Shown here: positions 2,578-32,500 of the stretch, one piece after another | Layout: each line of letters opens with the position of its first letter | Position numbering within the stretch: the first letter of the stretch is position 1 | IMG/VR virus record: IMGVR_UViG_3300048011_000459 | Location: 1 to 36,159 of that record | Strand: one strand, 5' to 3' | Source of the DNA: a virus | DNA: 36,159 nt | Translations under genes and position numbers: made by a program | Notes under the pieces: generated by a model | What the model was told of the DNA's origin: nothing | Databases searched by the model: none | What the model saw: the letters and a program-made list of their open reading frames with translations, nothing else

Positions 2578-2687
2578 AGTTTTATCCGTTTATCGTCATT
2601 AAATAGGCTATGTTTTTTGTCTGGCCAAACATAGTCCCAAGAATAATTTAGATCACCTTTCCAAATTCCTGCTAGTTTTCTATCCAT
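2574..2687 (-). CDS. Small tryptophan-rich 37-residue peptide between radical SAM genes
   Basis: The space between two radical SAM genes is filled by an ATG-started frame of 37 codons ending in TGA. The peptide begins MDRKLAGIW, continues through KGDLNYSWDYVWPDKK, and ends DDKRIKL; it has three Trp, two Tyr and many charged residues, and no Cys. The stop overlaps the start of the 404-residue radical SAM gene by 4 bases (ATGA), the same junction used elsewhere in this operon, and the gap to the upstream gene is 14 bases. No strong ribosome site is visible and no signal peptide or membrane segment. I recognise no family. It could be a peptide substrate of the radical SAM enzymes, a small accessory protein, or merely a leader for coupled translation. 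Confidence 0.6.
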   Translation of the reverse strand: MDRKLAGIWKGDLNYSWDYVWPDKKHSLFNDDKRIKL

Positions 2688-2701
2688 AAGCAAAAAATCT
2701 T

Positions 2702-10471: not shown

Positions 10472-11395
10472 TTATGATAAGGTCTGTGTGCTGAAGTATG
10501 TAGGTGCAATAACTACCACCTCGCCGTCTGCGCGGTAATGCTGTATAACACTTTCTAATCTGCCGTCTACATTATTGTCAACATTGTTGTCAAATACTAC
10601 ATCGTTAAATTCAATTTTAAATATAATACGATTATTTTGATCCGAACGTGCTTTAATACTATAAATATTTCCTGCGTATACTGAACTATATGTTCCTGAA
10701 CCAATTTTTTGATAAATTAGTTGATACCCGCTGTTTAAATCATAATTGCCGATCGAGCTACTGCCGCCTGTTGTAGAAATTGTTGTTTCTGCACCAAATT
10801 TTACAGTTCCAACACTAGAACACAACTCATTCCAGTCTAATCCTTTAGGCGTACTTGCGCTAGTATTATTTGCACTTATTCTGATTTCGCCACCTGTATT
10901 AAAAAAGAAACGTCGCGTATCTGCTGAGCTAAAAGTAACTTCTACTTCATGATATATTAAACCATTCCATGTACTAGATCTGGAACTAGTAATTGCAGGC
11001 TCTAATGCCGATTGCGAAGGGTCCATTGTGTTTTTGTCAGCAATAACATTATTCATAAGAGATTCAAAATCTTCAATACCTTTTTTGAAGCCATCTGGAT
11101 CAATACTAGTTACGCCATCGTCGTTAATAAAATTACTAGTATCTTCTGCTACAATGTTTAAATTTTGTATAACTTCAGCAATTCCAATATCACCCGGACC
11201 AACTTGATGTATCCTTGCTTTGAGAATATCAGAATAAATTGCATTTATGTCAGCAGCCTCAACTATATCACCGGTATTGTTAACTGGTGCACTTGTAAGC
11301 GATTGTCCGTATCCATTTTGTCCTGCGCCTGTTCCAAGTATTAGCTCAATACTGGATTGTAGGTTGTTAATTCGTGCTGCTGTGATGTCTGCCAT
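10472..11395 (-). CDS. Virion structural protein, 307 residues
   Basis: It shares with the following 329-residue protein a helical N-terminus (ARINNLQSSIELILG, NGYGQ, AADINAIYSDILKARIHQ) and a strand-rich C-terminal domain (DTRRFFFNTGGEIRISAN near residue 160, then LDWNELCSSVG, SSIGNYDLNSGYQLIYQ, FKIEFND). The two have drifted well apart outside these motifs. A ribosome site (AAGGA, about 6 bases ahead) supports the start, and only 12 bases separate it from the fibre gene upstream, so both share a transcript. No enzymatic motif is seen. The role as a tail/baseplate accessory protein is inferred from the context. Confidence 0.72.
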   Translation of the reverse strand: MADITAARINNLQSSIELILGTGAGQNGYGQSLTSAPVNNTGDIVEAADINAIYSDILKARIHQVGPGDIGIAEVIQNLNIVAEDTSNFINDDGVTSIDPDGFKKGIEDFESLMNNVIADKNTMDPSQSALEPAITSSRSSTWNGLIYHEVEVTFSSADTRRFFFNTGGEIRISANNTSASTPKGLDWNELCSSVGTVKFGAETTISTTGGSSSIGNYDLNSGYQLIYQKIGSGTYSSVYAGNIYSIKARSDQNNRIIFKIEFNDVVFDNNVDNNVDGRLESVIQHYRADGEVVVIAPTYFSTQTLS

Positions 11396-11407: not shown

Positions 11408-12892
11408 TTATACCTTTAGTACACATTCCACTAGTTTTTCGCCCTCATCATTATTGCTTTCAAGTGCAACACCAACTAAACTTCCGCCGTTAATTGCTGT
11501 ACTTGCACAACCATTATTATCAACATATACTGCTTGACCTTTTTTAACTGCGCCAATTACACGAACAGGTAAGCGCCCTTTAAGACCAATATATTGACCT
11601 TCTGCTTCACTATTCATCATTATAGCAGGATCAGTTGAAACAACACCAATTGCCATACAGCCTTGCTGTGTTGGCTCTACTTCGTGATCTTCATGTGAAC
11701 ATACACATACTACTGTGCCCGGAGCAAGTTCTTCTGCTGTAGTATATTTTTCTGCTAAGTCAGCATAACGTGCTTGAGTTGCAGTACCTTGGAATAAGTT
11801 TGCAGCAATATTGCCTGTTGCGTCTCTAACTGCTACTGTATTATTTGTTGCACTAGAACTTGCACTACGGAAATCACTGCCTACTCTTAATGTAGCAGCT
11901 TTAGATGCCTCACCTGTAAAGTTTGCTGCATACACATTTGACCAACCTAGGCTAGCACTGCCTAACGTAAATGTATTATCTGCTGCCGGGACAATTCCAG
12001 TTGCTGTAACTGTTCCTACATGTGTCAATACACCTGCGCCGCTGGTAACTTTTAATTTAATTACGCCATTATTAGTGATGTTTTGAATAATGCCATCAAA
12101 ACCATTATCATCAACTCTTAATTGAAAGTCTTGTGAATCACCAATTAAAATGCCGTCGTCTGGTGCTTCAATTGTACTTGCAAATACAGTATTTCCTACA
12201 CCTGTTTGTACAAAGTTTGCAGCAGAAATGCCGCCTAACTTGTCAGCATTTGTCGCAGTGCCGTGAAATCTATCAGCAGTACTTGTAACGCCAGCAGTGC
12301 CGTTTAATGTATTTCGTAATGTAATACCTCTGTGAATTCTATCAAAACCTTGTGATATTAATGAAGTTTCGCTTGCGTTTAGATCAAACTCGGTAGGGCT
12401 TGTCACATAAATTATTTCGTCTTCAATTACAGCAGCAATTATGCCTCTCGTAGCACTTGTAGTATCAAGAACTTCAAGGCTTTGCATTTGGGTTACACCT
12501 TCGCCTGCGTTCTGTGGTCCTATAAGTACAAAATTTGTTCCGTTATATACATACAATTGGTCATTTCCGCTGTCCCACCAAAAGTCAGCAGTCGCCAATC
12601 CAGTAGGTTCTGTAGTTCCTATTTCGGCTCCGCCTGTTGTGCGCCACTGTGTTCCGTCATAAAACTTTAATTTACTTGTTCCGCTGTCAAACCAAACTTG
12701 CCCACTGATTGGCCTTGCTGGCTGATTTGCTCCGCTAAAGTTTTCTAATAAAAACAAGAAGTTTTCATTTTGAATTTCACCGTACCCTGCGTAATTTTTA
12801 CCGATGAATTTAAGATCAGTTGTTTGATCAACTGTGCCATCTTCCACTGTAGTTAGCAGTGTATTGTTATATCTGTCTATTGCATATGCCAT
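11408..12892 (-). CDS. Tail fibre-like protein with cysteine-bearing C-terminal domain (494 residues)
   Basis: Residues 1-200 are the N-terminal module shared with the 636- and 684-residue proteins: YGEIQNENFLFLLENF, GQVWFDS, LKFYDGTQW, DFWWDSGNDQLYVYNG, LIGPQ. A fibre-like middle follows, with VPAADNTFTLGSASLGWSNV near residue 310. From about residue 369 the protein changes: QARYADLAEKYTTAEELAPG, then VVCVCSHEDHE and a compact strand-rich domain to the end. All five Cys I see lie in this last part. YADLAEKY...PGTVV domains end many phage fibre proteins and somewhat resemble phage appendage C-termini that act as trimerisation chaperones or cleave themselves; which applies here is unknown. A late-type box precedes the gene. 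Confidence 0.78.
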   Translation of the reverse strand: MAYAIDRYNNTLLTTVEDGTVDQTTDLKFIGKNYAGYGEIQNENFLFLLENFSGANQPARPISGQVWFDSGTSKLKFYDGTQWRTTGGAEIGTTEPTGLATADFWWDSGNDQLYVYNGTNFVLIGPQNAGEGVTQMQSLEVLDTTSATRGIIAAVIEDEIIYVTSPTEFDLNASETSLISQGFDRIHRGITLRNTLNGTAGVTSTADRFHGTATNADKLGGISAANFVQTGVGNTVFASTIEAPDDGILIGDSQDFQLRVDDNGFDGIIQNITNNGVIKLKVTSGAGVLTHVGTVTATGIVPAADNTFTLGSASLGWSNVYAANFTGEASKAATLRVGSDFRSASSSATNNTVAVRDATGNIAANLFQGTATQARYADLAEKYTTAEELAPGTVVCVCSHEDHEVEPTQQGCMAIGVVSTDPAIMMNSEAEGQYIGLKGRLPVRVIGAVKKGQAVYVDNNGCASTAINGGSLVGVALESNNDEGEKLVECVLKV

Positions 12893-12920
12893 TGTTATGT
12901 AACCCCTAGTGCTATTATAT

Positions 12921-12928
12921 TATTTATC
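12921..12928 (-). promoter_or_regulatory. T4-late-type promoter box GATAAATA
   Basis: GATAAATA on the minus strand differs from TATAAATA at the first base only. It lies 28 bases before the ATG at 12892, in the 40-base gap between two fibre genes, and would give the 494-residue gene its own late start. Confidence 0.42.
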
Positions 12929-12932
12929 GTTT

Positions 12933-14843
12933 TTACGGATACACAGTTGTTGACTGATATGTCCACGATGATCCATTAGATTTATATGTCATTAGTGCCC
13001 TCGACGGTGAAAGCACCACTGTGCCGTTAGCACCTTCAGGAGCAAACGCAACATCTTGTACTACTGCCTGATTTAATGTTCCGTTAGCATCAACAGAGAC
13101 GTAACTTATATTCTTAACAGCTTCTACATTCACACCCTCAACAGTTGCGCCAGTATATGATGTTGTGTGTATACGAGCAACTTTGTTAGTATTAAGTACT
13201 GCTGCTGGATACAAGTCATTTAAATATGTTGCTACTGCATTTTGTAACGCATTATCTGTGCCGAGACCTGTAACATCCATACTAAACACAATAGTTTCTG
13301 TTACAATTTCTTCATCAACATATTCTTTAGTAGTAACAGTATTATCGTCTGATTCTGTAGTTGATAATTCTGCTGCTTTTCTTGCACTTATCGCTTTAGC
13401 AACACCTGTAATTTTTTGGTTATCAGTAACATTAATATCTGCTCCTGCTGTAATTGCAATGCCATTTGACGATGTTATTGCCATATCATTAGTCGAGCTG
13501 ATTATCTTACCATTAATATTAATTTCGTCAACTTGTAATACAGTAAGTGTACCAATTTGATCTAAGTCTAGTGCTTTAGTAACATTGACTAAACTATCAT
13601 TTGTTAATTTATCGATGCCGGCGATTTTGTAACTCGATCCAGCGTTTAATAAGTCAAAATTTACATTTGAAGTAAAAGAGTTTGTTGCAGTTTTCCAAAG
13701 AATATCTTTACTACCATTAATACTGTTTACACTAATTCCAGATGAATCTGCTTGAGCATCAGTAAGTTCTGTACTATCATTTAATACACCAATTTCAATA
13801 ATCTTATCTTCTACTCTTAATGTTTGTACATCTAGTGCAACTCTGTCGCCTTCGACAATTAAGTCACCTGTAACTCTTAAATCACCTTCAACATCTAATG
13901 TATATTCTGGTAATCTGTTAGTAGTAAATATGCCAACTCGTGCTGTACTTGCATCTACATAAATTGCATCAACTGAAATAGCACCAAATGTACTTGACTT
14001 GACTCGTAAACTTAAATCGTGATCAGTAAGTTGGTTTTCGATATAAAATCTAGGACCAACAACTTTTTGTACATTATTCTGCGATAGGCCAATTGTTAAG
14101 CCACCTGAGTTTTGAATAGTTAGTGTACCTGTTGTAATGCCGCTTGCAGTAGATGGAAGAAAACTATCAGCAGTTCTAACAACTCCGGTTCCTGAAACTA
14201 GTGCATTAGCACTATCTGCAATGCCTCTAAATTTAAAGTTAGCAGTATCGATAATATTCATACCTACACGAATAATGCCGTTAGGATTTGATGCTGTTAC
14301 TAATCCTAAGATTCTCTGAGCATAGATCGGAGTAAATTCAATGTTACTAATTACTGCTGAAAGTGTACCACCTACATATAAGTAAGCAACGGTACGTGAT
14401 CTACTTTGTTGATCAAGTATGCTGCCGATTTCAAATCCACTTTTGCCTTGAGATTCGGTATACTGCGGTCCCATTAAAATTAAGTCAGTGCCGTCAAATG
14501 CATATACTTGGTTATTTAGATTATCAATCCACATATCTCCAGCAACCATTTGCGGTCTAGTATTTTGTACAATCGGGCCGCCGCTTGCTTTCCAAACACT
14601 TCCGTCATATACCTTTAAACGCTGTTCTGTACTATCCCACCATATCTGACCTGTTACTGGATTACTCGGAGCAGCAGTGTTACTAAAGTTTTCAAGTAGT
14701 CTTATAAAGTTTTCGTTAAAGTACTCTCCATAACCTGTATAATTTCTACCAACTAATGTAAGATTGGTACTAACTGTATCAATTTGTCCATCAATTAAGT
14801 CTGTTAACAGTGTGCCGTCTGTTTTGTTTAGTTGATAACTCAT
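12933..14843 (-). CDS. Tail fibre-like protein (636 residues)
   Basis: The N-terminal 200 residues repeat the shared module: YGEYFNENFIRLLENF, GQIWWDS, LKVYDGSVW, GDMWIDNLNNQVYAFDG, LMGPQY. The middle (about 314-407) carries LDVEGDLRVTGDLIVEGD and LRVEDKIIEIG, a strand-turn repeat widespread in T4-like phage fibres and likely a trimeric beta structure. The C-terminus (ATYLNDLYPAAVLNTNKVAR to WTYQSTTVYP) is unlike those of the two sister proteins. There is no enzymatic motif. It follows the 684-residue gene after 3 bases, so the pair is co-transcribed. The shared N-terminus should attach to the virion, and the free C-terminus may touch the host; both are inference. Confidence 0.78.
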   Translation of the reverse strand: MSYQLNKTDGTLLTDLIDGQIDTVSTNLTLVGRNYTGYGEYFNENFIRLLENFSNTAAPSNPVTGQIWWDSTEQRLKVYDGSVWKASGGPIVQNTRPQMVAGDMWIDNLNNQVYAFDGTDLILMGPQYTESQGKSGFEIGSILDQQSRSRTVAYLYVGGTLSAVISNIEFTPIYAQRILGLVTASNPNGIIRVGMNIIDTANFKFRGIADSANALVSGTGVVRTADSFLPSTASGITTGTLTIQNSGGLTIGLSQNNVQKVVGPRFYIENQLTDHDLSLRVKSSTFGAISVDAIYVDASTARVGIFTTNRLPEYTLDVEGDLRVTGDLIVEGDRVALDVQTLRVEDKIIEIGVLNDSTELTDAQADSSGISVNSINGSKDILWKTATNSFTSNVNFDLLNAGSSYKIAGIDKLTNDSLVNVTKALDLDQIGTLTVLQVDEININGKIISSTNDMAITSSNGIAITAGADINVTDNQKITGVAKAISARKAAELSTTESDDNTVTTKEYVDEEIVTETIVFSMDVTGLGTDNALQNAVATYLNDLYPAAVLNTNKVARIHTTSYTGATVEGVNVEAVKNISYVSVDANGTLNQAVVQDVAFAPEGANGTVVLSPSRALMTYKSNGSSWTYQSTTVYP

Positions 14844-14846
14844 TTA

Positions 14847-16901
14847 TTATTGCCCCGTATAAATTATGTAATTGACTGCTAGGTATGGATTCATAACATC
14901 CACAGGTGTTCCTAATGCAGTTTCTGTTTTGATTCCGCCGCTGGAAGCAATACCTTGTGTCCCACCTAAACCTGGTTCAATTGGTAATGAAATTGCAGTA
15001 TCATCTACTGGCTCGCCAGAGCCGACTCTGATGCCATAAAATTGTGTTCCGCTTTCGCCTTCTAAATCATGTTCGTGTTCTGGAAGGTTACTAGTTGCAA
15101 TTGTCTTTGAGTCTGATCCTGCGTTGCCGCCGATTGTATCGGCTGCAATATTTGTTACTCTGTTTGCACTCGGGCCTCCCATGTTATCGAGACCTAATGC
15201 AAATCTGCCTCGGAAGTCTGGCAATGTAAATTTATTAACTCCACTGTCGCTAACTAAACTAGGATCTTTAAAGTTATGTTGTATTGCTATCCATAATTCG
15301 TTATAATCAGACTTATTAACTTCGTTGCCGTCACATAGTAACCATCCTTCTGGTGCTTCTTCGCCACCGAATGGCATTATCGCGCCTGCTGGTACAAGTG
15401 GAATTGTCTTTAAGAAGTTACGTTTTGTAATTCTGCGTACACCAGTTGTTCCTGTAGTTACATTTAATAATAATTCGTCAGCATTACCTGCATCATAAGT
15501 AATTTCTTTGTTACTAATAAAACTGTTTGCAATACTTACGTTAAATGTTTTTGTGCCGCCGCCGGTTTGTCCATCAAATTCAAAACTGTTTGGTTCAACA
15601 TCGCCACTTAGTGCAAACGTAGTAGCACTTGCAAGTCTATCAGCACTTCCTGCTCTGCCACTAACAGTACCACTTACATTGCCTTGAATATTACCAAAGA
15701 ATGTTGTAGCATGTATCTGGTCATATTTATTAATTGCAGTACCGATATTTCGTGTGCTATTACCGTCAGGTGCAATATTACCTGTTTGTAATAATCCGCC
15801 AACAACAAGATTCTCTCCAATGTACGCATTTTGTGCAATGCCGATGCCGCCTTGAGTTGTGATACTACCTGATCCTTGAGATATCGAGTTTTCATTACTA
15901 GTAACTCGTATTACCCCAGTTTCTGCTTCTCCTTCTTTAGGCGAAATCTTAAGATTACCTTTGATATCAACAGTTTCTTCAGGCGCAATATTATTAAATC
16001 CTACATTTCCTTCACTACTAAGACTCATTATAGTTGGAGACGTATTTCCGTTACGCATTTTAAAATCAATACTAGATCCACTAGTATTATGCTGTATAAC
16101 GCCAGTTTCGCCTTCGATACCAATACTTAATTGCCCGCCTGTGCCAACTTTAACACCGTCATTACTTTTTACACTTAATTGGAAATTAGTAGTACTAGCA
16201 GCATTACCTCTTAAAAAGTTACTTGCTGAAATGGTTGTATTGCCTACTACTAATGCTTCGGCTTTTTCCGCAGTTCCATAATATTTTAGTGTCTGTGTGC
16301 CAACAATTGCTTCATTAGCAATGTTTATTCCAGGATTAATGCCTGTCCTAAAACCTTTAATTGATACCTTTGGGAGAAAACTTTGACTGCTAATAATAAT
16401 TACTGGTTGATTTTCAACCTTAATTGCCAATACATTATAAGATATATCATCTGTACCTATAATCGTTTGAGACTGTGCTCCAGTAAGTAATCCGTCACTA
16501 AAGTCAGGTCCAACTAGTACCCAAGTACTACCTGTAAACAAATATAACTGTTGACTGTCTGTATTAACCCATAAGTCGCCGGCGCTCGAATTTGCAACTG
16601 CCGGCGAAGAACTTGCTTTTTTAAGGCCGCCACTAGCTGCCCAGTTTGTTCCATCGTAAACTTTAAGTTGATCTACACCGTCTGTTGTATCATACCATAA
16701 CTGTCCTTCTACTGGACGTTCTGGTGCATTTGTATTCGCAAAATTTTCTAATAAATGTAAGAAGTTTTCGTTAATAGCAGATCCGTAATCAGTTCGCTGT
16801 CTGCCCGGAAAACTTAAACTTGTTTCACTATTAAGTGTGTTGTCTTCAACAGTAATAATACCCTTGTTAACAGTATCAGTGTAACTTATTGTATATGGCA
16901 T
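14847..16901 (-). CDS. Short tail fibre-like protein with tail collar domain (684 residues)
   Basis: Residues 1-205 are the shared fibre N-terminal module (YGSAINENFLHLLENF, GQLWYDT, LKVYDGTNW, GDLWVNTDSQQLYLFTG, LVGPD). A repetitive middle (VDIKGNLKISP, ISQGSGSITTQGGIGIAQNA, NIGTAINKYDQIHATTFFGN) follows. From about residue 499 to the end lies a phage tail collar domain, as in T4 gp12: PAGAIMPFGGEEAPEGWLLC, FTLPDFRGRFALGLDNMGG, TSNLPEHEHDLEG, and a final NPYLAVNYII. H609 and H611 (HEH) match the position where gp12 has histidines binding a metal ion inside the trimer. In T4 this protein anchors the particle irreversibly to the cell. An AAGGAG site 6 bases ahead confirms the start. Confidence 0.85.
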   Translation of the reverse strand: MPYTISYTDTVNKGIITVEDNTLNSETSLSFPGRQRTDYGSAINENFLHLLENFANTNAPERPVEGQLWYDTTDGVDQLKVYDGTNWAASGGLKKASSSPAVANSSAGDLWVNTDSQQLYLFTGSTWVLVGPDFSDGLLTGAQSQTIIGTDDISYNVLAIKVENQPVIIISSQSFLPKVSIKGFRTGINPGINIANEAIVGTQTLKYYGTAEKAEALVVGNTTISASNFLRGNAASTTNFQLSVKSNDGVKVGTGGQLSIGIEGETGVIQHNTSGSSIDFKMRNGNTSPTIMSLSSEGNVGFNNIAPEETVDIKGNLKISPKEGEAETGVIRVTSNENSISQGSGSITTQGGIGIAQNAYIGENLVVGGLLQTGNIAPDGNSTRNIGTAINKYDQIHATTFFGNIQGNVSGTVSGRAGSADRLASATTFALSGDVEPNSFEFDGQTGGGTKTFNVSIANSFISNKEITYDAGNADELLLNVTTGTTGVRRITKRNFLKTIPLVPAGAIMPFGGEEAPEGWLLCDGNEVNKSDYNELWIAIQHNFKDPSLVSDSGVNKFTLPDFRGRFALGLDNMGGPSANRVTNIAADTIGGNAGSDSKTIATSNLPEHEHDLEGESGTQFYGIRVGSGEPVDDTAISLPIEPGLGGTQGIASSGGIKTETALGTPVDVMNPYLAVNYIIYTGQ

Positions 16902-16907
16902 AATTTA

Positions 16908-16913
16908 CTCCTT
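16908..16913 (-). promoter_or_regulatory. Ribosome binding site AAGGAG of the collar-domain fibre gene
   Basis: AAGGAG on the minus strand lies 6 bases before the ATG at 16901 and overlaps the stop codon of the 200-residue gene by two bases, linking the two in one transcript. Confidence 0.7.
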
Positions 16914-17514
16914 ATCCTGCTAAACTTTGTACACGCACTGTATAGTCAATTTGAATTAGTCTATTAAGTGATTTTTGTACTGGATGGAAAATAACATGAG
17001 TAATTAAACGTCCAGTGCCGTCTGGTGAATAACTTCGTAATCCTAATTCATCAAACACATAAGGACTATCTGTTGCACTTGCGGTATCAAATGCATCTTG
17101 TTCGTTTGGTTCGCCATAATCTAACAAACAACTTACTACAATATCAGTATAGTTTGTGCCACTAACATGTCTTGTTTCTAATTTGTTACGTGCAGGGTCA
17201 GTATTGTTTACACTTCTGTCATCAACAACTTTAGTATAGGTTTGGTTGTATAAACTTGCATTTGTGCCTGTCGAGTTAGGTGTTAGGTAAGTAATAATAC
17301 CTGTAGGATCGATACTAGTACCGCCATTTCCGAAACTCATTTCATATATGAATCCTTGGCCTGCGTTACTCAAGCTTTCTGCCATTGCAACACTCATATT
17401 TTCATAATGAATTGCATTGCGTTTGTTAATATATACTTTTTGTGATTCAGGGTCAAATATTTTAATATGCCCTTGCACTAGTACTCCGTTTGTATCTTGC
17501 ATGTTATCGCTCAT
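16912..17514 (-). CDS. Virion structural protein, 200 residues
   Basis: A compact protein of alternating strands: NGVLVQGHIKIFDPESQKVY, then INKRNAIHYENMSVAMAESL, GFIYEMSFGNGG, then DYTVRVQSLAG at the end. I recall similar proteins in T4-like marine phages beside baseplate and fibre genes, annotated only as structural; no named domain is recognised. It stands between the giant virion protein and the three fibre proteins, so an adaptor that carries a fibre on the baseplate is a reasonable guess. The ribosome site AGGAA is close to the ATG, and a late-type promoter box overlaps the stop codon of the giant gene just upstream, making this the first gene of the fibre transcript. Confidence 0.68.
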   Translation of the reverse strand: MSDNMQDTNGVLVQGHIKIFDPESQKVYINKRNAIHYENMSVAMAESLSNAGQGFIYEMSFGNGGTSIDPTGIITYLTPNSTGTNASLYNQTYTKVVDDRSVNNTDPARNKLETRHVSGTNYTDIVVSCLLDYGEPNEQDAFDTASATDSPYVFDELGLRSYSPDGTGRLITHVIFHPVQKSLNRLIQIDYTVRVQSLAG

Positions 17515-17531: not shown

Positions 17532-17539
17532 TATTTATT
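17532..17539 (-). promoter_or_regulatory. T4-late-type promoter box AATAAATA overlapping the giant gene's stop
   Basis: AATAAATA on the minus strand, one base off TATAAATA, starts within the last codon (GAA) of the giant gene and includes its TAA stop. It lies 17 bases before the ATG at 17514. Three such boxes stand before late genes in this window. Confidence 0.45.
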
Positions 17540-20500
17540 CAGGTAGCCCAGATGTTCCTGCACGTAAGAATCTTGCAATCGAATTTTCTGTATCACCTAG
17601 TGCTATACCTTCTGCCGTCCAGCTTTGTCCTACTTTTTTGACTACTGTTACTCTTGTATCTTTTGCAGGAGTATTAATTAATGTAATTGTATTAGTATTT
17701 GCATCAAATGTAAAGTCTGATCCTATAGTAATATCACCTTCTGGACTATCTAATGCTATTGTATAATCAAATACATCTAGTGGTGTTTTACGCATACGCA
17801 CACCGCCTACAAACACTTCAATCTCGTTAATTGATGCTACTGGATACCCGATTTCGAACGTTGCTGTAAGACCATCTGCGCCAAGTTTTTTGTCTCCCTT
17901 ATCATCTATGTAAGATACATCAAATGACATTGTTCTGTCTTTATAAGGAACAGTCTTACTTATGTTTTGGTCAAACACTTTAGTACCTGTTTCGTATGTA
18001 TCCTTAACCCCTGTACCTAGTGTTCCTCTGCGAAGCTGTCGTAGTGTATTTTCTTCTTTAACAAAATATTCAATACGCTCACCTTCAATAAAGATTACAC
18101 CAGGTAAGTTTTGTCCTTTGTTTGGTTCTGACAGCTCAATAGCATCATCCAGTTCAATTCTTAAATCATAATAATTTAACGGCTGTGCTAGTTTAGCAGT
18201 AGATTTATCAAGGCGTTTAAAATGTGTTCTATTAAGCATGTCTTTAAACTGTCTGTATGCAAATTTAGGCTTGCTAATCGGTGCAGTAAAGTGGATAACG
18301 TCGATAACATCATCTGCGTCTGGCTGCTTAATTAACTGAACTTTCATTCTATCATCTGTAATATAATAATCTACACTCGGTGATAATAGTTCTCCATTAA
18401 CGCTTACCCATACATACTGTGCATCAACGGCAGATTTACGCAAGGCAATTTCACCAACAGTTGTTCTGCGATATGTAATATAATCGATATCTTCTGGTAT
18501 TAGCGCAGTTCTCGATATTACTTCGTAGTTAATGCGCTCTGTTCCTAATAAATTATGGTTTGTAAATTGTATTACCTCCACTGTTGCATTATCTGCAGGA
18601 GCATTGTCTAGTGTTACTGTATTTCCGTTAACTCTATATTCACCATCTGTAATTACGTACATTTCTAACAAGTCTCCCGAAAATCCTATGTCATCTGAAA
18701 GTATAATACTACTGTTTGCAATTTCAAAACGCCATTGTAGAGGAGTTGTAATTTCTACACCATTTAAAAATATCTTAACATCAGAAACATCTAGACTACC
18801 TGCAGGCATTTGGAATGTTTCTAATGCAAATTCGCGTTGACTATTTTCAGGAATAGTATATTGAATATTATATCCTGCATTTAGTATTTTATTATCTACT
18901 TTAACTAATACGTTATGTTCACTCGGAATTACATAAAGAGGAGCACTTGAAAGTGTAAATTCTCTAGTAGATGCATCACCATTAAATACGTCTTTGGTAA
19001 TTTGACTATAATTAACTTGTTCATCTGCTGAGAATACTGTGTAATTAATTACTGCGCCGTCTGCTACTACTTCTTCAAATCTAATAACTGTCTTAGGACC
19101 AGTCTCTGATTTAAATGCTGCAACAGTTTTTTGTTCGCCGTTAATACTTGCATATACACTTATATTCTCTTCCCAATCGACAGTAGTTTCGAATTCTGTA
19201 GTATCCCCGTCGCCTATTAGTTTACCATAATCTAATATGTTTTGAGTGCCTTGTGCAACTGTTACAATACTAAGTTCTGCACCTACTACTGCTGTATCAA
19301 GTGTTACAGTATTTGCAGCCCAGTTTATAGTATAATCAGTTTTCGGAAGTATAATATTGTTAACTTTTACAATAACTGCATCACTACTATTTGGAGTAAC
19401 TCCTAAGTCGTATACAAGTGTACTATCCATAATATAACTTTGACTATTAATAACACCTTGTCCTGCGCTGTCTCGTGTGAACACTTTGATATCTAATGTA
19501 TCCAATACTTGTCCTGGAATAACTTCTTCGGGGCCTCCTGAAGTAGTAGGAGTAACAAAGCCGTCGCCGTCTACAATAATTTCTTCCGCTGCAACACCAC
19601 GTGCTGATGTATAAGCTAAATCTCCGCCAGTTAGTGCAGTATCATAACTTTCTGCATCAGGAATAACACTACCGTCACTTGTAGTTTTTCTTACAACAAA
19701 TACATCACCGTCTAACAACGCTATGCCTAAATCTTGCACATAGATTACATCAGTTGTGCCATCGCCTGTAATACTGTTTGTAATAGCATTTACATTAGTA
19801 GGAGTGCCTGCATCAAAATTAGGATCATCAATTCTTACACCGTTTTTGTATAAGTTGTAAACAACACCATCTTCTAGTGCTGTACTTAATTGTACTGCAA
19901 TAGTTGATCCATCTGCTGTAAATATTTCATCTTCAAATGTATTATCAAACTCATCCCATGTATCAGTATACCAAGGAGAAGTGTCAAACCCTGCCGGTCC
20001 TGAAAAATCAAAACTACGTACTTCAACACCACCGTAATCAACGCCGTTCATTAGCTGTGCTAGATCTTTGCCATACATTCCTGCAACTGGATTATATGCA
20101 AAATTAATTCTATCCTCTGCATTTAACATGCTTAAAGGAATATTATATTCAACACGTATTGTTGCATTTAATTTTGGAGGATATGCAAATAGTATTTTTC
20201 CTTGTTCTCTGGTATAACTCTTGTCAGTATTTTTAATATTTTGGTATGTGTATTTGCTGCGCAATTGTAAGATATTATCAACATACACACTAACTTTTTT
20301 GTTGTCTAAATCCATAGGCCATTCAAGGAAGAATCTATTTTCAAATCCTGTGCCTGTAAATGTTTCTGTTTTGGATAATGTATCAAACGTAAATGTTCCG
20401 CTAGTTCTATCAAACTTAATTTTAATACTTGGACTTCTTACTAGTCCATTTCCTAATACAGCAGTTGCCTTTGCCGGAGTGCCATCTTCAGTTTGGGATC

Positions 20501-23500
20501 CTGAAATAACAACTGTAGGAGCACTAGTATATCCCGTTCCGGGATATGTTACTTTGATATCTGTTATTTTTCCGTATCCTAGATAAGCTTTGGCCTTTGC
20601 ACCAGTGCCGCCGCCGCCTAATAGCGTAACAACAGGCTCAAATGTATAGCCACTTCCGCTGGAGCCAAGATCGACATCAGTTACTTGATAACCATAATTA
20701 TCTCTCCAACTTTTACGAGGATAACTCAATGTATCAATATTTTCTCTTTTAATTTCATTATTATCAATTATTGCACTACTTGTATCTATAGTACCTGTAA
20801 GTTTATTATATATAGGCGATAGATCAAAGTCACTAATTGAACTATTTGTAGGTTCTAATGCTGTATACTGACTTACAAATTCTCTAATTTTAGTAGAGTA
20901 AGGCTTAAATTCTTCTACTGCATCTTGATAACTTTGTAGATTATCATTATTGAATGTAATATCTTGTTGGTTTAAAGTTTCTCTATTATGTTTAGCTTTT
21001 ACAAAACTTGTTTTAAACATCCAATCAACAGATTGCTGCTCTGACATTACATAACGTAGTGCTGACATGAACAACTGATTGTATTCAATTTCTAATGCAT
21101 TTATAAAAATCTTATCTCTAATAGTTTCAAGTATAATTCTTAATTCAACACTCGGATTATTATCAAAGAAATTACTGTCAAAACTACGATTACTATAACC
21201 TACAGTATTTTTACTGTAGTCATACAACGTATCTTTTAATTGTATTGTTCCGTTTTGTCTACCAATTGTATCATAGTTGATCGTGTAGTCTTCGACATCT
21301 TGTTCGTCGACTTTGCGTAGTAATAACCATCCGCCAGTACCTACATTCTCAATTTTTACTATATCACCAATATTATTAGTTAGCGTAGGTAATTGATAAG
21401 AACCAACAATAGTATCGTTAATATTTGTAAACTGATTAAATCCCGGAGCATACCAATCAATATAATTCCAATAAGTTTCAATATTATAACTTTGAAGTTT
21501 TCTTCTATACCATTCTGTATTATTCCAAGAATATAATGCCCATTTATCTTGAATAGTTTCGTCTGCACTAACTAATACAGTAAATGGCCTAACTGTTATA
21601 ATTGTAGAATTGTTGTAACCGCTACCTTCATTAGTAATGTTAACCGAGACAATTTGTCCTAAATTATTAATCTCAACTGTAAATTCTGCGTCAGTTCCTT
21701 CTCCATTAACTTTAACGCTAGGAGCAACTTTATAGCCTCGGCCCGCGTCTGTAATGTTAACTCGCGTTATTCTGCCATTAGTAATTATAGGCGTCAATAC
21801 AGCCGGTTTAATTTTATTTGTACTTACATATGTAAGATCAGCTAAAGTATCAATTTTTAAATCATAATCTCTTGATATTGCAGTCGGCGGAGTATCTTTT
21901 TGAGTTAAACTCGAAATATCATACTCGTCAACTATAAGAGTTTCTGCTAATTTTAAATTTATTCTTTCAATTGTTTGTTTTAGTGCTTCAAATCTGTTAA
22001 CAAACATACTTTGCCTTGGACGATTTTGTACACCGTAACGATTTTTAACAGTAATAGTTGGATCTGGAACAATCCTATTATTACTATCAAACCCAATTAA
22101 GCTATCAAACCATTTACGTTCAATATCGGGATCAGGCTTACTTATATCTAACCCATCTGATATTAATTTATACTGACTGTGTATATTCTGTGTTTTCTTA
22201 GGACCAGTTGAATACTTAATATTCAATACTAAGTCGTCATTATCGATATAAGTATCAAAATTATTAAGAACAAACTTGTTATCAGAAAGTAAACTTAAAA
22301 ACGGATAGCCTTGTGTTCTTGGATTTTGTATAAGTGCAGAAATGTCCCTAATACTTAAACGTCTATTTTCCATAACAGGAACCACAACACTATTAACTAC
22401 CCAGAAATAATATTTGTTATTAAAAGTTTTACTGAACTCATCATAGATTATTTTAGTTGAATATCTAGTATCGCCAAATAAACTTGTGCCGCTAATTCCG
22501 TTAGCTATGCCATCAGGTGTATCAGCAATACCATCTCTAATACTCGGTATAAAATTACTTTCTACCCACTCATATACATCAATTCTTGCACCAGGTGCTA
22601 GTTTATTCCAGTTATTTTTTTGGAATGTTGTTGAACCTTGATAAGCATGAGTAAATTTAGCAGTACTAATATTCCACCATACTTGACCAACATGTTCGGC
22701 AGTCCATGCTCTATTAGGATCTACTGAACTGTCTGACGTATTGCCTGTGTTATATACTGCTGGATCAAACGGAGTTTTAAATGTAATTTCTTGATCTGCT
22801 GGTCCTGCAATCTTACCTTGTACAGGATCAATATAATCAATGTAACTTACAATTTGATTTTCACGTTTGTTATACAAGAATACTCCGCGGATATTATCAA
22901 CATCTACTGGTGTAATTCCTTCTCTAAGAACATTCCATGCAAATGTATTTTTGTTTTTTCTAAAGTCTAACAACTGCCCTTTTGTATTGTCATTAAGCTG
23001 GTCTGGCATTCCTATATAAACATGATTGCCGTTAGCATAAATGTTTTCGCCAAATGTAGTTTGAGTTAGCGGATAAACAAATTGTTCTGAATATATTAAA
23101 TTTTCATTAACTGTTTCATATACATATACTACACCTTTATCTAGTTTAATATTTCTAAAGTTAGTAAACTCTCTATCAAACGTAGTTGCAGTGTCTTCAG
23201 TTGCAGAATATACTGCAACGTCAAATGTAGTCGGAATTGTTTGGTCGCCATTTAGACTAGACACTACTAAGTTATCAGAGCCAAAGTCGAGTCCAAAGCC
23301 GAAACCTTCACTCTCTTCATTTTGTGGAGGAGTTAGTGTCTGTGTTAGTACAAATACACCATCTTGTTGTGTATAAACATATACAACACCCTGATTTATT
23401 TTATTAGTATCTACCAACATTGAACTAATTGCAAGCTGTGTACCTTCTGGATTTAATGCAACTTTATCTGCCCACGCTGTAACATTATCAGGTGCGGCGA

Positions 23501-26500
23501 TTGTTTGATCTAATAAAAATTTATCGTCAATTGCACGGTAAATTGCTAACTTTGTATCTACAGTACTCGACGTGTCAACTTGCTTACTAGTTGCAACTAG
23601 AACTTGCGCATCGTCACTTATATCAAAACTCTTACTAAATTCTAAAATATTTTCAATAGGATCAAATACATCTTCGTTGTAAAATGCATTTGCTGTTAAA
23701 TTAGGCAAATATCCTACATAATCAATATTAGTACTTAACAAAGTCCAGGAGTTATTTGATTCACTAGGAATTGGTGCACTAACTGCTATATTAGTATCAG
23801 CTTTCCATAATTTATTATCTTGTACAACAATATTTTCTTTTTTATAAGTGTAACTATTATCAAACACACCGCGATAATTCGAATCTTTACCGTGTTTCCA
23901 ACTAATATTAGTCCAATAAATTGGATCGGAAATAACATTCTGTTCAGAATTGGTCGCTTTTCGACACACATAATATGCATCTTGGTATATTACAATGTCG
24001 CCAATATCGTACGCTGTTAACTTATATTCGCCTTTAAAGCTGTCAGTTGTTTTAGTACCATGACGGAATATTTCAATTGACCCAGGATGAGTACGTCTTC
24101 CTGTTGAGTCGTCTTCTGATAACGCTACACTGTTACTGCTAACTAACAATGTATAATAATTACCAGATTGTACTATTTTAACTGCCTCGCCAAAGTATCT
24201 ATTCTCGGCTCTATACTCTGAAACAAAAACATTTTGGAATCTATAAGTGCCGTCACGCAATCTTCTGTAAATGGCAACAGCGCCTTCATTTTCGATTATT
24301 TTTTCTGTTCCAAATTCGCTAGCCGAAATATTATAGATTTGCGTATAATCTTTGTTTAAGCTAAACGGTGGGTTTGGTAAACGTTCGATTCCTGATTCAA
24401 TTGTTTCGTCAAAGAACCAATATTCTTCATCAATAATTGTTGGATTATCACTAATTAGAAAATCATTAGTATGTTCGAATACTAATAATTTACCTACAAT
24501 TGAATTTCCTAATATTATATTATTATTAATGTCTGTCACCGTGCCAATAGCACGGTCTACGTCAGCAACCCCGCCTCTAATACTAGGATTAACTGTATTA
24601 TTATCACCAGACTTTCTGCGAATTTGGTATCTACCGATATTTGATTGTTCTAGCCATTCGCCTGATACTATTTTTAGATAAACTCTAACACTGTTAAATT
24701 TACGTTGCATAAACATTACTTCAGCACTACTAGTTGTAATACTAGTAAGTGCAAGACCGCCTTGACCGTCTTTTGGAGTTTGAATATCTTCTAATATGTC
24801 ACCGACTTGCGGTTCGTATGCAAACCCATCAAAATCAAATTCGCTTAATTCAAAATCAATATAACCGTCCCATAGGTCAACAATAGTCTGTTGTTTGTTT
24901 ATAATATCATATGTAAATTCTGCACTTGCAACATCAATTATTCTGTTGTCAAGATTATATAACCTCATTTCAGTAGTATCGCCGACTGTTAATGTATCGC
25001 TATAAGTTTTGCCAACTCTGACAACCCACTTTTTGCTAGGCAACTCACGTTCAGTTCCATCTACGCCATCTTGTCCTGACGGATCTCCGCGATACGATAA
25101 ATTTTCAATATAACTTACATTGTTTTTATTTGTAACATATACACCAATGGCACCCACTGTTGACTGAATATTATAATAATTATTAAGCAATCTATTAGAA
25201 TTTTGCAATTTTACATCAGCATAAACTAAGCCGCGACCAACATCATAATATGTGCCGTTGTTTGAATATTCAAATCCAGTATCGATCATCCAATACCCAT
25301 CAACTGCATCGCTAGTTGCGTATGTAGATTCCTCTGAATAAAATCCTACAAAATCTACTTCTTCAATAAATAATTCACCAGTAACATCGAATACACCGTT
25401 TGTATTTTTAAGATAAACAACTGCACTGTCTCTTCGGGTACTTACATATGCAACTTCAGCTGAACCAGTATCGCTTGTTACAATAGATCCTACAATTGGC
25501 AGGGACACAAATGCTTCGATCAATAGTATATGATCAATTTTTTCAACAATATTATGTTCTTGAGATATAAAATCTTTAGTAATTAACGGAATATTTCCGT
25601 CGAATGGAATAAAATTATCAAGTGTAGGATATGCATAACTGCGTTGATTCCAAAATAAATTAATTGTATCACCGGGCTTGGTGCCAATATACATATCTTT
25701 AGGAGCACGTACTAATAAATGACTTGTTGTATTATTTTCTAACCCTGAATCACCAGCTACTAAAAGATTTAATGTTGTACTATCACTGTCTGCTTGAGTA
25801 GCGATATTTATATATGTATCAAATGTACTAAAAGGTTGATTGCCAATTTCTGGAAGTATTTCTCTATTTGCTTTCCACAGGCTTTCTCTATAACGAACAA
25901 TATCATTTTTAACATAACTAGCAGATGGCTGGAAGTCAAATGTAGATTGTCCAGTATTTGGATCCGTTTTATACGCTAGTTTAGTTTTTACACTACTTGC
26001 ATTTGGTATACCTATAACAAGGTATTCGCCGTCTGGAGATACCGAAATACTCTTTCCGAAGGATATATCAGTATTATCAAACAGATTACTATCTTCAAAA
26101 ATAATCTCTTGATCTAAAATTAAATTACTTTGTTCTCTAGATCTTCTATAGTAAGAAACTTTACCATTTGCATCATCTGGTGCTGAAACAAAAACATTAT
26201 TGTTATCTTGTGTTATAGCAACACTATCACTAAATTTTTGATCCGTACTATCATATTCTGAAGTATTAAAAATAGCCTGAGAATTTAAATATACAGGATT
26301 GTTTTCTAAAACAGCCCAATCTTTATTATAAGTGTCAATCCATAATTTTTGATTGTTGTATATATTTTGTTTTGTTACAGAGTTAATATCTGTAACACTT
26401 TCGGCACGTATAGTTCTTAATGTAGATATTACATAACTCTCGTTATCTTCTGCTTCAAGGTCTGTTATTTCGTTGTCTAACGGAACTCTAATTCTAACAG

Positions 26501-29500
26501 TATTAAGGTTAATACTATCAATCTCGTACAATCCGTTAATATTATATGTTTGTGCTTCACGAACTCCAATGTAATCTCCTACAACAAAGTTTTCGATTGC
26601 CCACTTGTCTAAAGTTAGTTCAACTAACCTTAGTCTGTTTGTAGCAACTTCAGTAATAAGAGTTTTTATACCAATAACATTAACCTTTGATCTTATTAAT
26701 TGTTTTACTGTCCAAGATTTATTATCAGTGTCTGTTACCCATATAGTGTTTCCAAGACTGATTTGATTTGTGTCGACTAATGCAAGATCTAATTGATTAC
26801 TAACAATAAAATCAACATCATCTTCATTAACGTATCCCGAAGTTCTGATATACTCATTAGTTAAAGTTTTAGTTGGGAATGGAGCATGTGTATAATCTGC
26901 AGGTTTATCGAACACTTCGTTCGGCAAAATTCTGTAAATCTTATCAAAGTTAGTTGCAGGCAATGTGTTTACAAGCTCAACTGCTTGAGGCGACTCTTGC
27001 ATTTTTTCTTGTTGTAGGTTATACTCAACTTGTTGAATATCATCTACTGCACCATAGCGCCCAACTTGTATTGCCCATTCTTCATAAAACTCTAAGTTGT
27101 CAGCAGTATTGCCAAGCGCATCAAACAGTTTAGTAAACACATTCATTGTGCCTTTGTCTGCAATAGCACCACGATAGAATTTAAACTGACTTACATCGTC
27201 GTTAATAATGTTTGCAAGATATTGGCGCTTTTGATAGCCTATCAAATGCTGTGCCATTTTTTGCTGTTCAATATCAAAGCTATCTGAATCTAAGTCATAA
27301 AAATCAGTAAATTGTGTAACTCTGTAATCAAAGTTAGTCATTAATCCTGACACTGGTTTTTCATTTAGTTGATACCAAAAATTATTATTAAATTCTTGAG
27401 AACCAGTTACATTAGACGTTGCTACATAATAGTACTGCTTATACTTTACAATATCGCCGATATTGTAGTCTTTCCAAGTAGTCCAATCCGTAAAACTTGC
27501 ATCATCGTATACAAATCCAGGAATGTTTAATCCGCCGTTCCATCCGTCTGATTTATAACCATTAACTCGAATTCTTTCTTGTCTATAACCAGTTGCAGGA
27601 TTATATATAGTGTCATTGAAGTCTGTTGTATTATCTATCAATACAACATGTTCTTTTTGGACCAATGGCAGTGAAACATGATATAAACCTTCTTTAGTTC
27701 CTACTGTTTCGATACCAAAGCTGTTTTGATCTCTTAGCAAACTATTAAATTCTGAATCTAAAGGCAAGCCATCAGCTTTAAAAATACTATATCTATAAAA
27801 ATCATCTTTGATATTATCAACTACATAATAATCTCTATTGAATTCAATTAAGTTTGCAGCAGGCGATAACGCAATTAATGAACTATTAGCCCATCCTTGT
27901 GTTGTCCAGAATAAAAACTGTTTTGCAGAAGTATTCCAATTTTCAACTTCATTAGTACCTTCAATAACATTTTCAAAACTAAATCCAATTTCTGATTGTC
28001 GTACACTATATCCTAGTATAAAGTCAACAACTTCTTGTGCAGTATCAAAACGACTTCCGTATTGCAAACGTTTGACTGAAGTAGTGTCAAAGTTTTTCTT
28101 AAACTCTGCTGTTCTGCCGCCAGTAAGAGGCAATGCAGGAAGTTTAACAAGATTGTCTGTGTCAAATGTTCTATCACTAGTAAATGAATCTATAACTCTA
28201 TAGTAAACGTTGTTATGTAAAATTACTTCTCCACTTAGATAAAGTTTTTTAGTATCCCATTCGACTACCTTTTCACTTATGCCGCCGACGGTTACAGTAC
28301 TTTTCGAAGATCCTTGTATAGATTTGTAATATTCAAAATACGGCTTATCTAAATTGTATCCTCTAACAATATAACCTAATTCTGCACGTTCTACAACTAT
28401 GCCGCTATAAACTGCCAGTTCACTAGGACTACTTGTGTTTAAAAATACTTGATAATTTTCCTGCGGCACAAAAATGCCGTCTTGTGTAAGTGCCTGTGTA
28501 GGCGAACGACTATCTAGTATTAAATTAAACTTTTCTTTGCTAGTAAATCCAGCAATTTTTATACCTAATTGATTGGTAAGTGCATCTAAGTCAGTTTTAT
28601 ATCCTTCATAAACTGATAAAATATCACTTGCCACAAGATTATAAATGTAGTTTACTAGCCCAGAAGTAGTAGTTCTAGCATCCGATTCAAATGTATTAGG
28701 TAAGGTTAAATCTTTCAGTACTATAGGCTTGTTAGTAACAATATCTACCCATTGATTTGCTAAATTTTTGTTGATTCTCGATACGTCAAATCCTAAACCC
28801 ATTGTTTTTGCAGGTTGATTTAACAACATTGCAGCTAGTACTGCAAAAGGATATTCAGAACTCTTGCGCCAAGTATTTTCGACCGGTGTATAATCACCAA
28901 ATTTAAAATTATTAGTTGCTGTTCTTATATCAAAGTCTTTAGCATATCTACTTTCCAACGGCGATAATAATTTACCAGTACTATCAACTGGAATGAAATT
29001 AGACAGCCCTGGACGACTATATTTAAGATCAATTCTTGTATTATTAGGCTCTGCAATTTTGCCTTCTTCAAGATCTTTCCAAAGTACTAGGTTGTCACCA
29101 GTATACGGCGCAGGTCCATACACTTCATTCCACCAATCTGGCTTCGTTGTTAATCCGAGCATTTCCCATGGGTGACTATGAGGTCTATCTGTGTCAAATG
29201 CTCTTACGTAAACGCCTCTCCAAAATCCTGGATTTTCATTTCTGTTTGGCGATTTTGTTGTACTATAATTAAATGTCCAGTTGTTTGTTCTGTCATAAAA
29301 AGTATTATTAGTATAATTATTCTGGCTTATATTTTCCAGTATCCACTGATGGAAACTACCAAGTAAAGTATTATCAATTTCTTCTTTTGTAAATTCGTTA
29401 GTTCTAAATTCGCCGCCGATGAATTCGTTTACATCTAATCTGTCAGTTGAATATTCTGCTTTAATGTTGTTAAATATTCTTTTTTCAAATTCTAATAACA

Positions 29501-32500
29501 GTTCATCTCTAAAATCTTTATATGCTTTTACATAGCTGCCGTCGTGACCTCTAATAAATGCAACGCCGATTGGATACTCGTCAATTTCAATATTGTCGTT
29601 TCCAGCTAATGTAGCGCCTTCAGTAGGAACATAAAACAATTTATTCATACCTACAAAAGTATAAGACTTTGAAGCCGAACCTGATCCAGCTGCACTCTTT
29701 GATGTATACACTGGATAAAACCAACCTCTATTGCCAGTTGCTTCATCTTCACCATATATTTTAAATGGTCCAAATGTTTCTAGCACAGGTCCTTGAACTG
29801 TATCATCAATAGTTAATTCAGGATAGTATTTCGGATATAATCCTAGTTTACTCGGAGTGGGAGCAATAAAGCTTCCATCTGTATTGCTATATTCGTGTAT
29901 TTCAATTATATCATTTTCATCTTGTCCGGCATTAATCGAAACATAACTTGCTGTATCAAAACTATAATCTTTGTTATGTACTAACTGTTCACCGTTTAAA
30001 TAAACAAGAATAGCACTTGCACTTAAATCCTTTAGATCAAAATTATTAGTAATAGGGTAATCACGAATTCTTTTATCGTAAACTGTGTATTCAATTTTAT
30101 TATATGCACCAGATGCAATCATATCCGAAAAATAAAACGGTTGCGACTTTAACTTATCACTATTAATAGTTTTTAGAATAAGATCAACGTGTTTATTAAC
30201 AGGACCGTCATACCCTAATTTGTCAGCAGTATCTAAAAACGTTTTTTTATACCTTGTATATTCTTTGTTTGAATAAGTTAATGCTTTAATAATATTATAA
30301 TTTTTGTTTGTTATATGATATAATGGTAAATTGACAGGAGCACTATGCTTTACAAAACGTTTACCATATTTGTCTAAATCTCCTAAATCTCTAAGATTAC
30401 TTTGTCCTAAAAAATCTCCGTTATATCCAGTAATATCTTCCAACATACTATCAACATGGTCAATTACTTCGCCGAGCGTAAACTGACTAACATCATCATT
30501 TAGTGGATTACGTTCTAAGTTATATGGAAATTCATAATATCCATTAGCATTTTTTATAGTTTTAGAATCTGTTTTAATTTTAATAACATCATCTGTGTTT
30601 AAAGAGCTATTAAAAACAACTACTGCATTGGCGTTGCTTTTATCAATAATATAATCAGCATTAATTAATTTTAGTTTATTATTAACAAATACAACTACTT
30701 TTAAATCTGCAATACTGCTAGAGTTATCATATACATCAATTTCAAAATTGTTAGTTTGAATGTCTGTTGCAGCATATTCTTTTATAATATATTGTTTACT
30801 AATTGAAGGAGTACTGCTAAATCCATTTACATATGTAAAGTTAGTAAGAGACGTATATTTTTTTAAATATCCGCTATCAATTTTTTGTGTAAATAAGTCT
30901 GTCTCTGTTTGATATGTAAATGTATCATTTAATAAATTAAAATCAAATACAATATCTCCAGAGTTTTCAATAGATTTATAACTTAACGCAAATCCTAATT
31001 CAGCATCAACTGTGCCTTCACCTTGTGCATAAGAAAATAATTTAGTTCCTTTAAATGATGTTGAACCATAGTATGTTTCATCACTAAAACTATTACCGTT
31101 TATATCACAAACCGCAAACATAGGCGTTTGATTATAAGTTGTCTTTTCTTGTGCAGCTAACCATTGATCTTTATGGTAATGATAACTTTTGCCTGCATTT
31201 TTTACACCCTGTGTAACTAATACAGTTTCAAGATCAATTGGATTAGTATCATCAGTTTCTACTAAGCTAAGTTGTCTGTTATTTCCAATCTCGACAAATT
31301 TTACTTGATAAATTTTACCACTTACTAATAGATCTGTATCTGCTGTAAATAAGATGCGCATATTGTTAGCTAAATTGATACCGTCAATGTTATATCCAGA
31401 CTGTCCTTCAATAGTACTGAAAACGTCAGTTGTAAATGTATCAATTAAATCAACATCTTTTTTAGCTACTGCTCCAAAATTATTTAATTTTAACCCTGCT
31501 TCAAATTCTATAATAGGTCGTTTTGCACGAGCTGATTCATCGACATTTACTGGTAAATGATTAAATTCAAAACTTTTTATAATTACATCTTTATGATGCC
31601 ATCTATTATAACGACTCCAAGCATTCCTGTCCGGTGACGCTCTATTAACTACAATATAGTCTTTTTCTGTTGCATATGCACTTGCATCTGCAAACGGAAG
31701 TGTATCAAAATTATCACTGTCGAATGCAATACGTCTTGTATCACTATAAGCTGCCGGAATAATTAAATCTTGATCTTTAATTAATTTAATTTTATCCCCT
31801 ACACCTTCAACATACCAATCGTTAGTTTCATATTCAGCAGGTAGTACATCTCCTTGGAATCTAATTTTCATTCCGTTAGATAGTTCAACGCCATTTGCAC
31901 TTAGATAGGTTTTCTTTCCTAATATTTCTTCAGCAACATTAAGGAATGCATTTTCTTCAATATCATAAATTCTAAATTGACCGCTTGTATCTACTGCATT
32001 TTTACTAATGTAGAATAATCTATCAGGTGCGTTGAAGGGAATAGTAAATTCGATTGTGCCTTTTTCAATATATGCAATTGCAACTTCTTCACCTTCTTCA
32101 CCTAACTTACGAATACCATCTGGGTATAGTGTACTAACATTATCGTCTGCTGCAAATGTTACACTGCCGCCGCTTGGCAAAATAATAAATTCGCCTTGAT
32201 CATATTCATTGCCATATAGAACGGCGTCAAATAATCCGTCAGCACGTAATCCTTCTGATCCTGCTGTCAGAATAGCACTGCCAGGAGTAAATGTTCTGCT
32301 AATAGCAATGGCCATTGGATGACCAGGAGCATCAATTTCAAAACGGTAAGTTTGTCCACGATAAAGTTTTAGATTAGGATTGCGTGTTAATCCATCGTTA
32401 AACACATATGCAACATTATCACCTTGATCTTCAGTTGTAACAGTATATGTACTAACAACTTCTCTACTTTGTCCTCTTACAGGAATACTAATAGGACCAT

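Follow-up and report, generated by a model that had tools for sequence, protein, structure and literature searches.

Organization of the locus

The IMG/VR virus record IMGVR_UViG_3300048011_000459, analyzed here over positions 1 to 36,159 (36,159 nucleotides, hereafter the window), carries three consecutive genes for putative fibre proteins. The genes are referred to as A, B, and C in the order of their transcription. They are open reading frames (ORFs) on the minus strand and together fill positions 11408–16901 (Table 1). The N-termini of the three products share a common module (pairwise BLASTP E values of 9e-39, 3e-38, and 2e-38), and their C-terminal ends are unrelated, as the initial annotation of this stretch had described. 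This N-terminal homology is beyond doubt, and the genes of the trio are treated as paralogues. A profile of the module, when searched against the window, matches A, B, and C and no other ORF at E <= 10.

Table 1. Positions of the fibre genes, their predicted parts, and the neighbouring genes in the window (aa, amino acids).
Feature	Position	Strand	Description or basis
Gene A (684 aa)	14847..16901	minus	N-terminal module, Phage Tail Collar domain (residues 506-567), gp12/gp10-like C-terminus
Gene B (636 aa)	12933..14843	minus	N-terminal module, shoulder to ~residue 325, stalk, C-terminal tip 515-636
Gene C (494 aa)	11408..12892	minus	N-terminal module, stalk, putative C-terminal phi29 gp12-type autocleaving chaperone domain
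N-terminal module of gene A, residues 1-130	16512..16901	minus	motifs, alignment, profile
N-terminal module of gene B, residues 1-130	14454..14843	minus	motifs, alignment, profile
N-terminal module of gene C, residues 1-130	12503..12892	minus	motifs, alignment, profile
TLDVEGDL motif of gene B, residues 315-322	13878..13901	minus	end of A/B homology; equivalent to the L236/L281 join
Predicted autocleaved chaperone of gene C, residues 378-494 (predicted cut between A377 and D378)	11411..11761	minus	alignment with phi29 S691/D692, D-x-A-E
200-aa protein directly upstream of gene A	16912..17514	minus	phrog_11259; 38-54% identity to PA5oct gp357, Atu_ph07 gp177, Phosso 293
Giant virion structural protein homologue (5140 aa)	17535..32957	minus	homologous in parts to PA5oct gp355, Atu_ph07 gp180, Phosso 294
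Baseplate wedge subunit (1062 aa)	32957..36145	minus	phrog_10646 (5.7e-237); PA5oct gp354, Atu_ph07 gp181
307-aa protein downstream of gene C	10472..11395	minus	homologue of PA5oct gp360 (annotated ESI-MS/MS)

The shared N-terminal module and its border

The module contains NENFxxLLENF, followed by GQxWxD and LKxYDGxxW and by a weaker second copy of the W unit that ends in LxGP. These motifs are present in all three proteins. GDxW, which had also been listed as common to the trio, is confined to A and B, and in the window gene C has ADFWW at that place. Identity between the paralogues peaks over residues 1–130, and the best-conserved core spans ~88 residues. Aligned nucleotide identity between the genes is 41–60% over codons 1–150 and then declines gradually. 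Profile-profile homology extends to residues 320/325 in the A/B pair, to 256/255 in the B/C pair, and to ~290 in the A/C pair, the last with a further gapped stretch. Divergence is thus not uniform along the proteins, and a module border exists, but it is graded and lies later than residue 200: beyond the peak, a shoulder of lower conservation runs to ~256–325, depending on the pair. The common block of 200 residues proposed in the initial annotation was not borne out as a sharply bounded unit.

The same annotation saw in the module border a ready substrate for recombination. A comparison of the paralogues at the DNA level gave no recent conversion tracts. Recent gene conversion among A, B, and C was rejected because the longest identical DNA is 11–13 nucleotides and nucleotide identity peaks at 60%, and it is also contradicted by the N-modules grouping by slot, not by genome, in a tree of the module (see below). 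Since the paralogues share at most 13 identical bases, the substrate would be an orthologue in another phage, and the join observed among relatives lies at ~residue 320.

Linkage of anchors and tips in related viruses

Relatives were gathered in several sets, which overlap in their loci, with several loci coming from one contig; 408 of the 705 complete module genes are distinct. The near-relative set comprises the 80 best viral contigs, and because the 80-locus sets are ranked by similarity to the query, diversity is understated in them. The wider sample comprises 119 further loci chosen by a DNA pattern for the E-N-F...L-E-N-F motif. The presence of the module in 119/119 of these follows from that choice, which does not apply to their tips and copy number.

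Among the near relatives, A is followed by B in all 80 loci, as in the window. Gene C comes next in each of the 65 loci long enough to include it, and a contig edge cuts off the remaining 15 before that point. Gene lengths barely vary, and tip classes are never swapped. Mean pairwise identity in 25-residue blocks ranges over 0.58–0.92 in A, 0.49–0.91 in B, and 0.56–0.99 in C, the anchors (N-terminal modules) of B and C being the highest. Where A, B, and C are all complete (58 loci), anchor and tip distances rise together, with correlations of 0.53–0.93. With distances correlated and lengths and order constant, tip swapping among these 58 trios is not supported, and the proposal of free tip exchange is likewise unsupported in the 80 nearest contigs.

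In the wider sample, the collar-ended gene is first and the gene with a tip of the gene C class (G2) is last in 15/15 runs that hold a complete gene of each kind. Copy number varies: the runs include A-B-G2-G2 (L292), B-G2-G2 (L275), B-other-G2 (L242 and L315), and A-short-G2 (L249 and L281). In one locus (L323, 6924–12878) the middle-slot module gene has 1985 codons, against the usual 600–750. When the 408 distinct complete genes are sorted by anchor class, assigned by score and too close to call in 29 of them, the collar tips fall on 106 A anchors and one C anchor (106/107), the B-type tips on 115 B anchors and one unassigned (115/116), and the G2 tips on 122 C, 11 unassigned, and four B anchors. 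On the N-module tree (136 rows, few columns, many unresolved forks) the tip label needs 22 changes, compared with a mean of 72.0 for shuffled labels, and none of 200 shuffles gave a value as low. Each slot's anchor keeps to its own tip class.

A further test, made slot by slot, counts pairs of genes, not independent of each other, whose anchors are at least 70% identical and whose ends are called unrelated by BLASTP. Such pairs number 0/2858 in slot A and 1/3708 in slot C, the single one involving an extra-slot gene. The initial reading of the trio, in which every gene joins the shared anchor to a receptor-binding tip that can be exchanged freely, would fit the common anchor, the unrelated ends, the variable copy number, and the one clean tip replacement described below. 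It is nevertheless very unlikely in view of these counts, the strong tie of tip class to anchor class, and the chaperone-like end of gene C.

Tip replacement in the middle slot

Gene B has no Pfam domain above cut-off. Its tip is modelled fairly confidently within a poor whole-protein model (predicted local distance difference test, pLDDT, 49), and the best fold match of the tip reaches only Z 4.8. In the 58 complete trios, mean distance in slot B is 0.41 and 0.33 for the last two segments, compared with 0.16 for the anchor.

The pair test found unrelated ends in 10/3284 slot-B pairs: four involve locus L227, three are diverged but largely alignable, and the last three link members of the group L236, L281, and L319. 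A clear replacement distinguishes L236, whose gene B encodes 617 residues, from L281, with 373 residues. Their anchors are 95% identical, and the sister contigs are collinear with 76–84% DNA identity on both sides of gene B. Identity collapses at ~residue 320, stays lost up to the stop codon, and is restored directly after it. The break falls at a TLDVxGD peptide, the same place at which A/B homology ends in the window. A second case concerns the extra slot: the genes of L242 and L292 are 75% identical to residue 465 and then have different ends, with G2 in L292 only.

Several other candidates for swaps were rejected. The ends of L293/L306 and of L240/L254 are diverged but mostly alignable, and L222/L290 is alignable over nearly its whole length. 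Gene B of L227 (2684–4614) is frameshifted, not swapped, being split into two ORFs after codon 194 by a frameshift that is either real or an assembly error. Occasional replacement of the slot-B tip in deeper relatives is thus supported by one clean case, and to this extent the idea of exchangeable tips holds for slot B and an extra slot, with a border other than the one first proposed, but not for the outer slots, A and C.

The C-terminal domain of gene C

The C-terminal end of gene C is modelled well by AlphaFold: over residues 381–494 the ten-residue confidence means are 84–92, except for residues 421–430 (61) and the last four residues (75). The N-terminal end of the model is not confident. 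Among solved structures, the closest to the C-terminal end are the C-terminal fragment of phi29 gp12 and its pre-mature form, ahead of capsid proteins of the same fold (Foldseek 2.8e-5; VIA Z 15.1 with a root mean square deviation of 2.3 over 113 aligned residues to 3suc, and Z 14.8 to 3gqh). By sequence, a profile of ten YADLAE domains matches the phi29 gp12 preneck appendage (5.8e-6) and the Dpo31 tailspike chaperone (2.7e-5). Peptidase_G2 is matched at E <= 0.01 by 10/10 isolated domains and 15/20 full-length members.

We take phi29 gp12 to be cut between S691 and D692, and D692 and E695 (phi29 numbering) presumably have a catalytic role at the cleavage site. The alignment places YA/DLAEKY of gene C on WS/DFAEYF of phi29, the slash marking the cut. 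In the 3suc ("pre-mature") chain, the E of D-x-A-E is replaced by Q. D-x-A-E is present in 137/137 G2 tips, 136 times as [YF]ADxAE and once as YGDLAE. From model and alignment, the end of gene C is most likely a folding chaperone of the phi29 gp12 autocleaving type, which would serve folding and trimerization and then, as predicted, remove itself. Self-removal at the predicted site between A377 and D378 would leave a gene C body of 377 residues. The end is probably cut off and not receptor-binding, so the initial view of the trio as a set of receptor-binding tips stands only in part.

The alternative that the domain stays on the protein, in a cement-like or binding role, draws on the match of the isolated gene C domain to Phage_cement_2 (26.4 bits, cut-off 24) and on cement proteins having the same fold. 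It is improbable, as the best fold matches are to the phi29 gp12 chaperone and no variation is seen in the D-x-A-E motif, which aligns with the phi29 cut site. The tip had also been described as Cys-bearing. Five cysteines are indeed present, but only C490 is kept in 60/60 near relatives (window included), the others in 10–36/60. The same YADLAE chaperone-like domain occurs on a different N-terminus in Campylobacter phage CP20 (L208, 4963–6477).

Gene A and the baseplate neighbourhood

Gene A, present in 80/80 near-relative loci, matches the Pfam Phage Tail Collar family (PF07484) above its cut-off (2.7e-14; 53.3 bits, cut-off 24). A weak match to Gp10_C stays below the cut-off in the window (17.5 bits, cut-off 27).

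The order of the wedge, giant, 200-aa, and module genes is the same in Pseudomonas phage PA5oct, Agrobacterium phage Atu_ph07, and Sinorhizobium phage Phosso, the homology of the neighbours being established by BLASTP. The giant gene of the window (5140 codons) is longer than its homologues in the three phages. Between the giant and the 200-aa gene, Atu_ph07 has a short gene and a 237-aa gene, and PA5oct one short gene of 126 bp. In place of the trio, PA5oct has two module genes: gp358, which ends in the T4 Gp10_C domain above cut-off (9.8e-24, 85.3 bits) and is annotated in the record as T4-like gp10, and gp359, which ends in a YADLAE domain. Atu_ph07 (gp176) and Phosso (292) have one module gene each, YADLAE-ended. 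PA5oct gp357–gp360 carry the annotation ESI-MS/MS (electrospray ionization tandem mass spectrometry), that is, virion detection by mass spectrometry according to the record. The baseplate wedge gene nearby and these annotations of the PA5oct homologues support the proposal that the module is a common virion anchor. Xanthomonas phage XacN1 (L206, 12474–21530) and Stenotrophomonas phage RAS14 (L207, 10665–19342) each have six module genes in a row, whose products combine P/T-rich linkers with varied C-termini. Among isolated phages, a DNA-level search with the trio region found only a 79-nucleotide match, located inside the 200-aa gene.

This setting bears on the main rival explanation, namely that the trio members are structural baseplate pins without a role in host choice: core baseplate parts that are counterparts of the T4 gp9/gp10/gp11/gp12 pins and short fibre, whose ends would serve assembly and signalling. 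The adjoining wedge gene, the conserved order, the Gp10_C domain and annotation of PA5oct gp358, and the fact that tips of slots A and C turn over little are in its favour. Yet tips of slot B diverge faster than the anchor and are sometimes replaced, and the six module genes of XacN1 and of RAS14 differ in their ends. We regard this explanation as possible but doubtful.

Other features of the region are as follows. Just downstream of gene C lies a second paralogous pair (9421–10410 and the 307-aa gene; minus strand) with 30% identity (3e-32) and with homologues in 199 and 208 fetched loci, many of which overlap. Two genes of 286 and 283 aa (7326–9012, minus strand) between the radical-SAM and fibre blocks have homologues in 152 and 156 fetched loci. 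Past the fibre region, four consecutive radical-SAM genes (111–5475, minus strand) are recognized by Pfam PF04055 and/or PHROG matches. Phosso and Atu_ph07 also have radical-SAM genes soon after the fibre gene, but these lack BLASTP similarity at 1e-4 to those of the window.

Proposed function and mechanism

We infer that the trio encodes an ordered A-B-C set of co-expressed fibre or pin proteins, probably trimers, that belong to the baseplate region, and that the source is an uncultured aquatic virus of bacteria related to jumbo myophages such as PA5oct and Atu_ph07. As a whole, this reading is given a probability of about 0.68. It would operate via the following steps: The N-terminal module would dock A, B, and C to the baseplate, as gene order suggests, and all three would be carried on the virion at once. 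Gene A, by analogy, would act as a pin or short fibre of the T4 gp10/gp12 type. The gene C trimer would rely on its last 117 residues for folding and afterwards cut them off between A377 and D378. The tip of gene B, a candidate for receptor binding, would occasionally be replaced by recombination with another phage near the TLDVxGD motif at ~residue 320.

Whether the genes form an alternative or a co-mounted set had been left open initially. Co-mounting is the likelier of the two, since each gene is intact, the trio is conserved together, and the inverted repeats seen in its region are all short. Phase-variable use is likewise not favoured, as a scan of 16 window proteins, the giant not among them, turned up no recombinase gene.

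Several observations weigh against the proposed ordered set. No credible PDB sequence relative of the N-module was found, nor was T4 homology detected, and the module has no confident model (pLDDT ~30 for residues 1–60); single-sequence PDB searches with A, B, and C gave nothing useful. Docking is thus deduced from synteny alone. Gene C falls below the Peptidase_G2 (PF11962) cut-off of 25 bits, both at full length (20.9) and as the domain alone (23.9), and as the Pfam gathering score is missed, the protein is described as working like Peptidase_G2 and is not filed under PF11962. Full-length Phosso 292, Atu_ph07 gp176, and PA5oct gp359 give no Peptidase_G2 match at E <= 0.01, and the fold is also that of capsid cement proteins. 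The clean tip replacement comes from one pair of metagenomic contigs, most other slot-B pairs of the test being diverged alignable tips or the frameshifted gene. Finally, G2 variants are scattered in the close clade: the states GG or not and CxH or not need 7 and 11 changes on the backbone tree, compared with 3 and 7 when placed on the G2 tree. This count covers 44 of the 58 loci, near-copies having been dropped, and the scatter may reflect allele exchange or convergence.

A more specific form of the ordered set can be envisaged. It would be specialized by slot, with a fixed collar protein first, a fixed autocleaving-chaperone fibre last, and a variable middle slot (plus an extra slot in some lineages) whose tips are replaced at the TLDVxGD joint with the anchor untouched; the module would let three trimers form one baseplate-mounted heteromeric complex in a set ratio. 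Taken jointly, these elements make an unlikely, speculative proposal.

Relation to known systems

The closest counterparts are PA5oct gp358/gp359, Atu_ph07 gp176, and Phosso 292, which resemble the window in locus order and N-module. Of the two PA5oct copies, one is Gp10_C-ended and the other YADLAERY-ended, and the rhizobial phages Atu_ph07 and Phosso have one YADLAE-ended copy. They differ from the window in having one or two copies instead of three and no B-type gene, and the window module is 30–42% identical to theirs. Gene C is like the phi29 gp12 neck appendage and the Acinetobacter Dpo31 chaperone in fold, in the extreme C-terminal position of the domain, and in D-x-A-E at the cleavage site. 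Unlike phi29 gp12, it has a different N-terminal anchor, lies near a baseplate wedge gene, carries Ala instead of Ser before the predicted cut, and stays below the Pfam cut-off. The likeness to T4 gp10/gp12 consists of the collar domain in gene A, Gp10_C in its PA5oct counterpart, and the baseplate gene neighbourhood, and the difference is the N-module, for which no T4 homology is detected.

Sets of fibre proteins that combine a shared anchor with differing ends are already known. In the branched tailspike sets of CBA120 and RaK2, several fibre proteins have conserved N-terminal attachment domains and different ends, as described in the consulted parts of PMC10253068. According to the same parts, these sets use gp10-like XD and D1/D2 domains with depolymerase bodies, and the trio module is not mentioned there. 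As regards attachment domains of the CBA120/RaK2 type in the trio, the N-module has no credible PDB sequence match, and its model is not good enough to compare folds. Neither the module nor the trio was found described in the portions consulted of the open PMC literature (including PMC8326128, PMC6102473, PMC6892783, PMC10253068, and PMC12619734). Within those portions, this module, the fixed A-B-C order, the putative autocleaving-chaperone member, and the slot-restricted replacement look new.

The anchor module, defined by sequence, occurs throughout many myophages of the jumbo type. Most of their fibre genes otherwise carry annotations such as hypothetical or structural protein, and the analysis of the trio shows where swaps occur and where they do not. 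If the proposed reading is true, it predicts the positions of the domain borders, the end that is probably discarded in assembly (that of gene C), and the gene to examine for host range in an uncultured aquatic phage (slot B).

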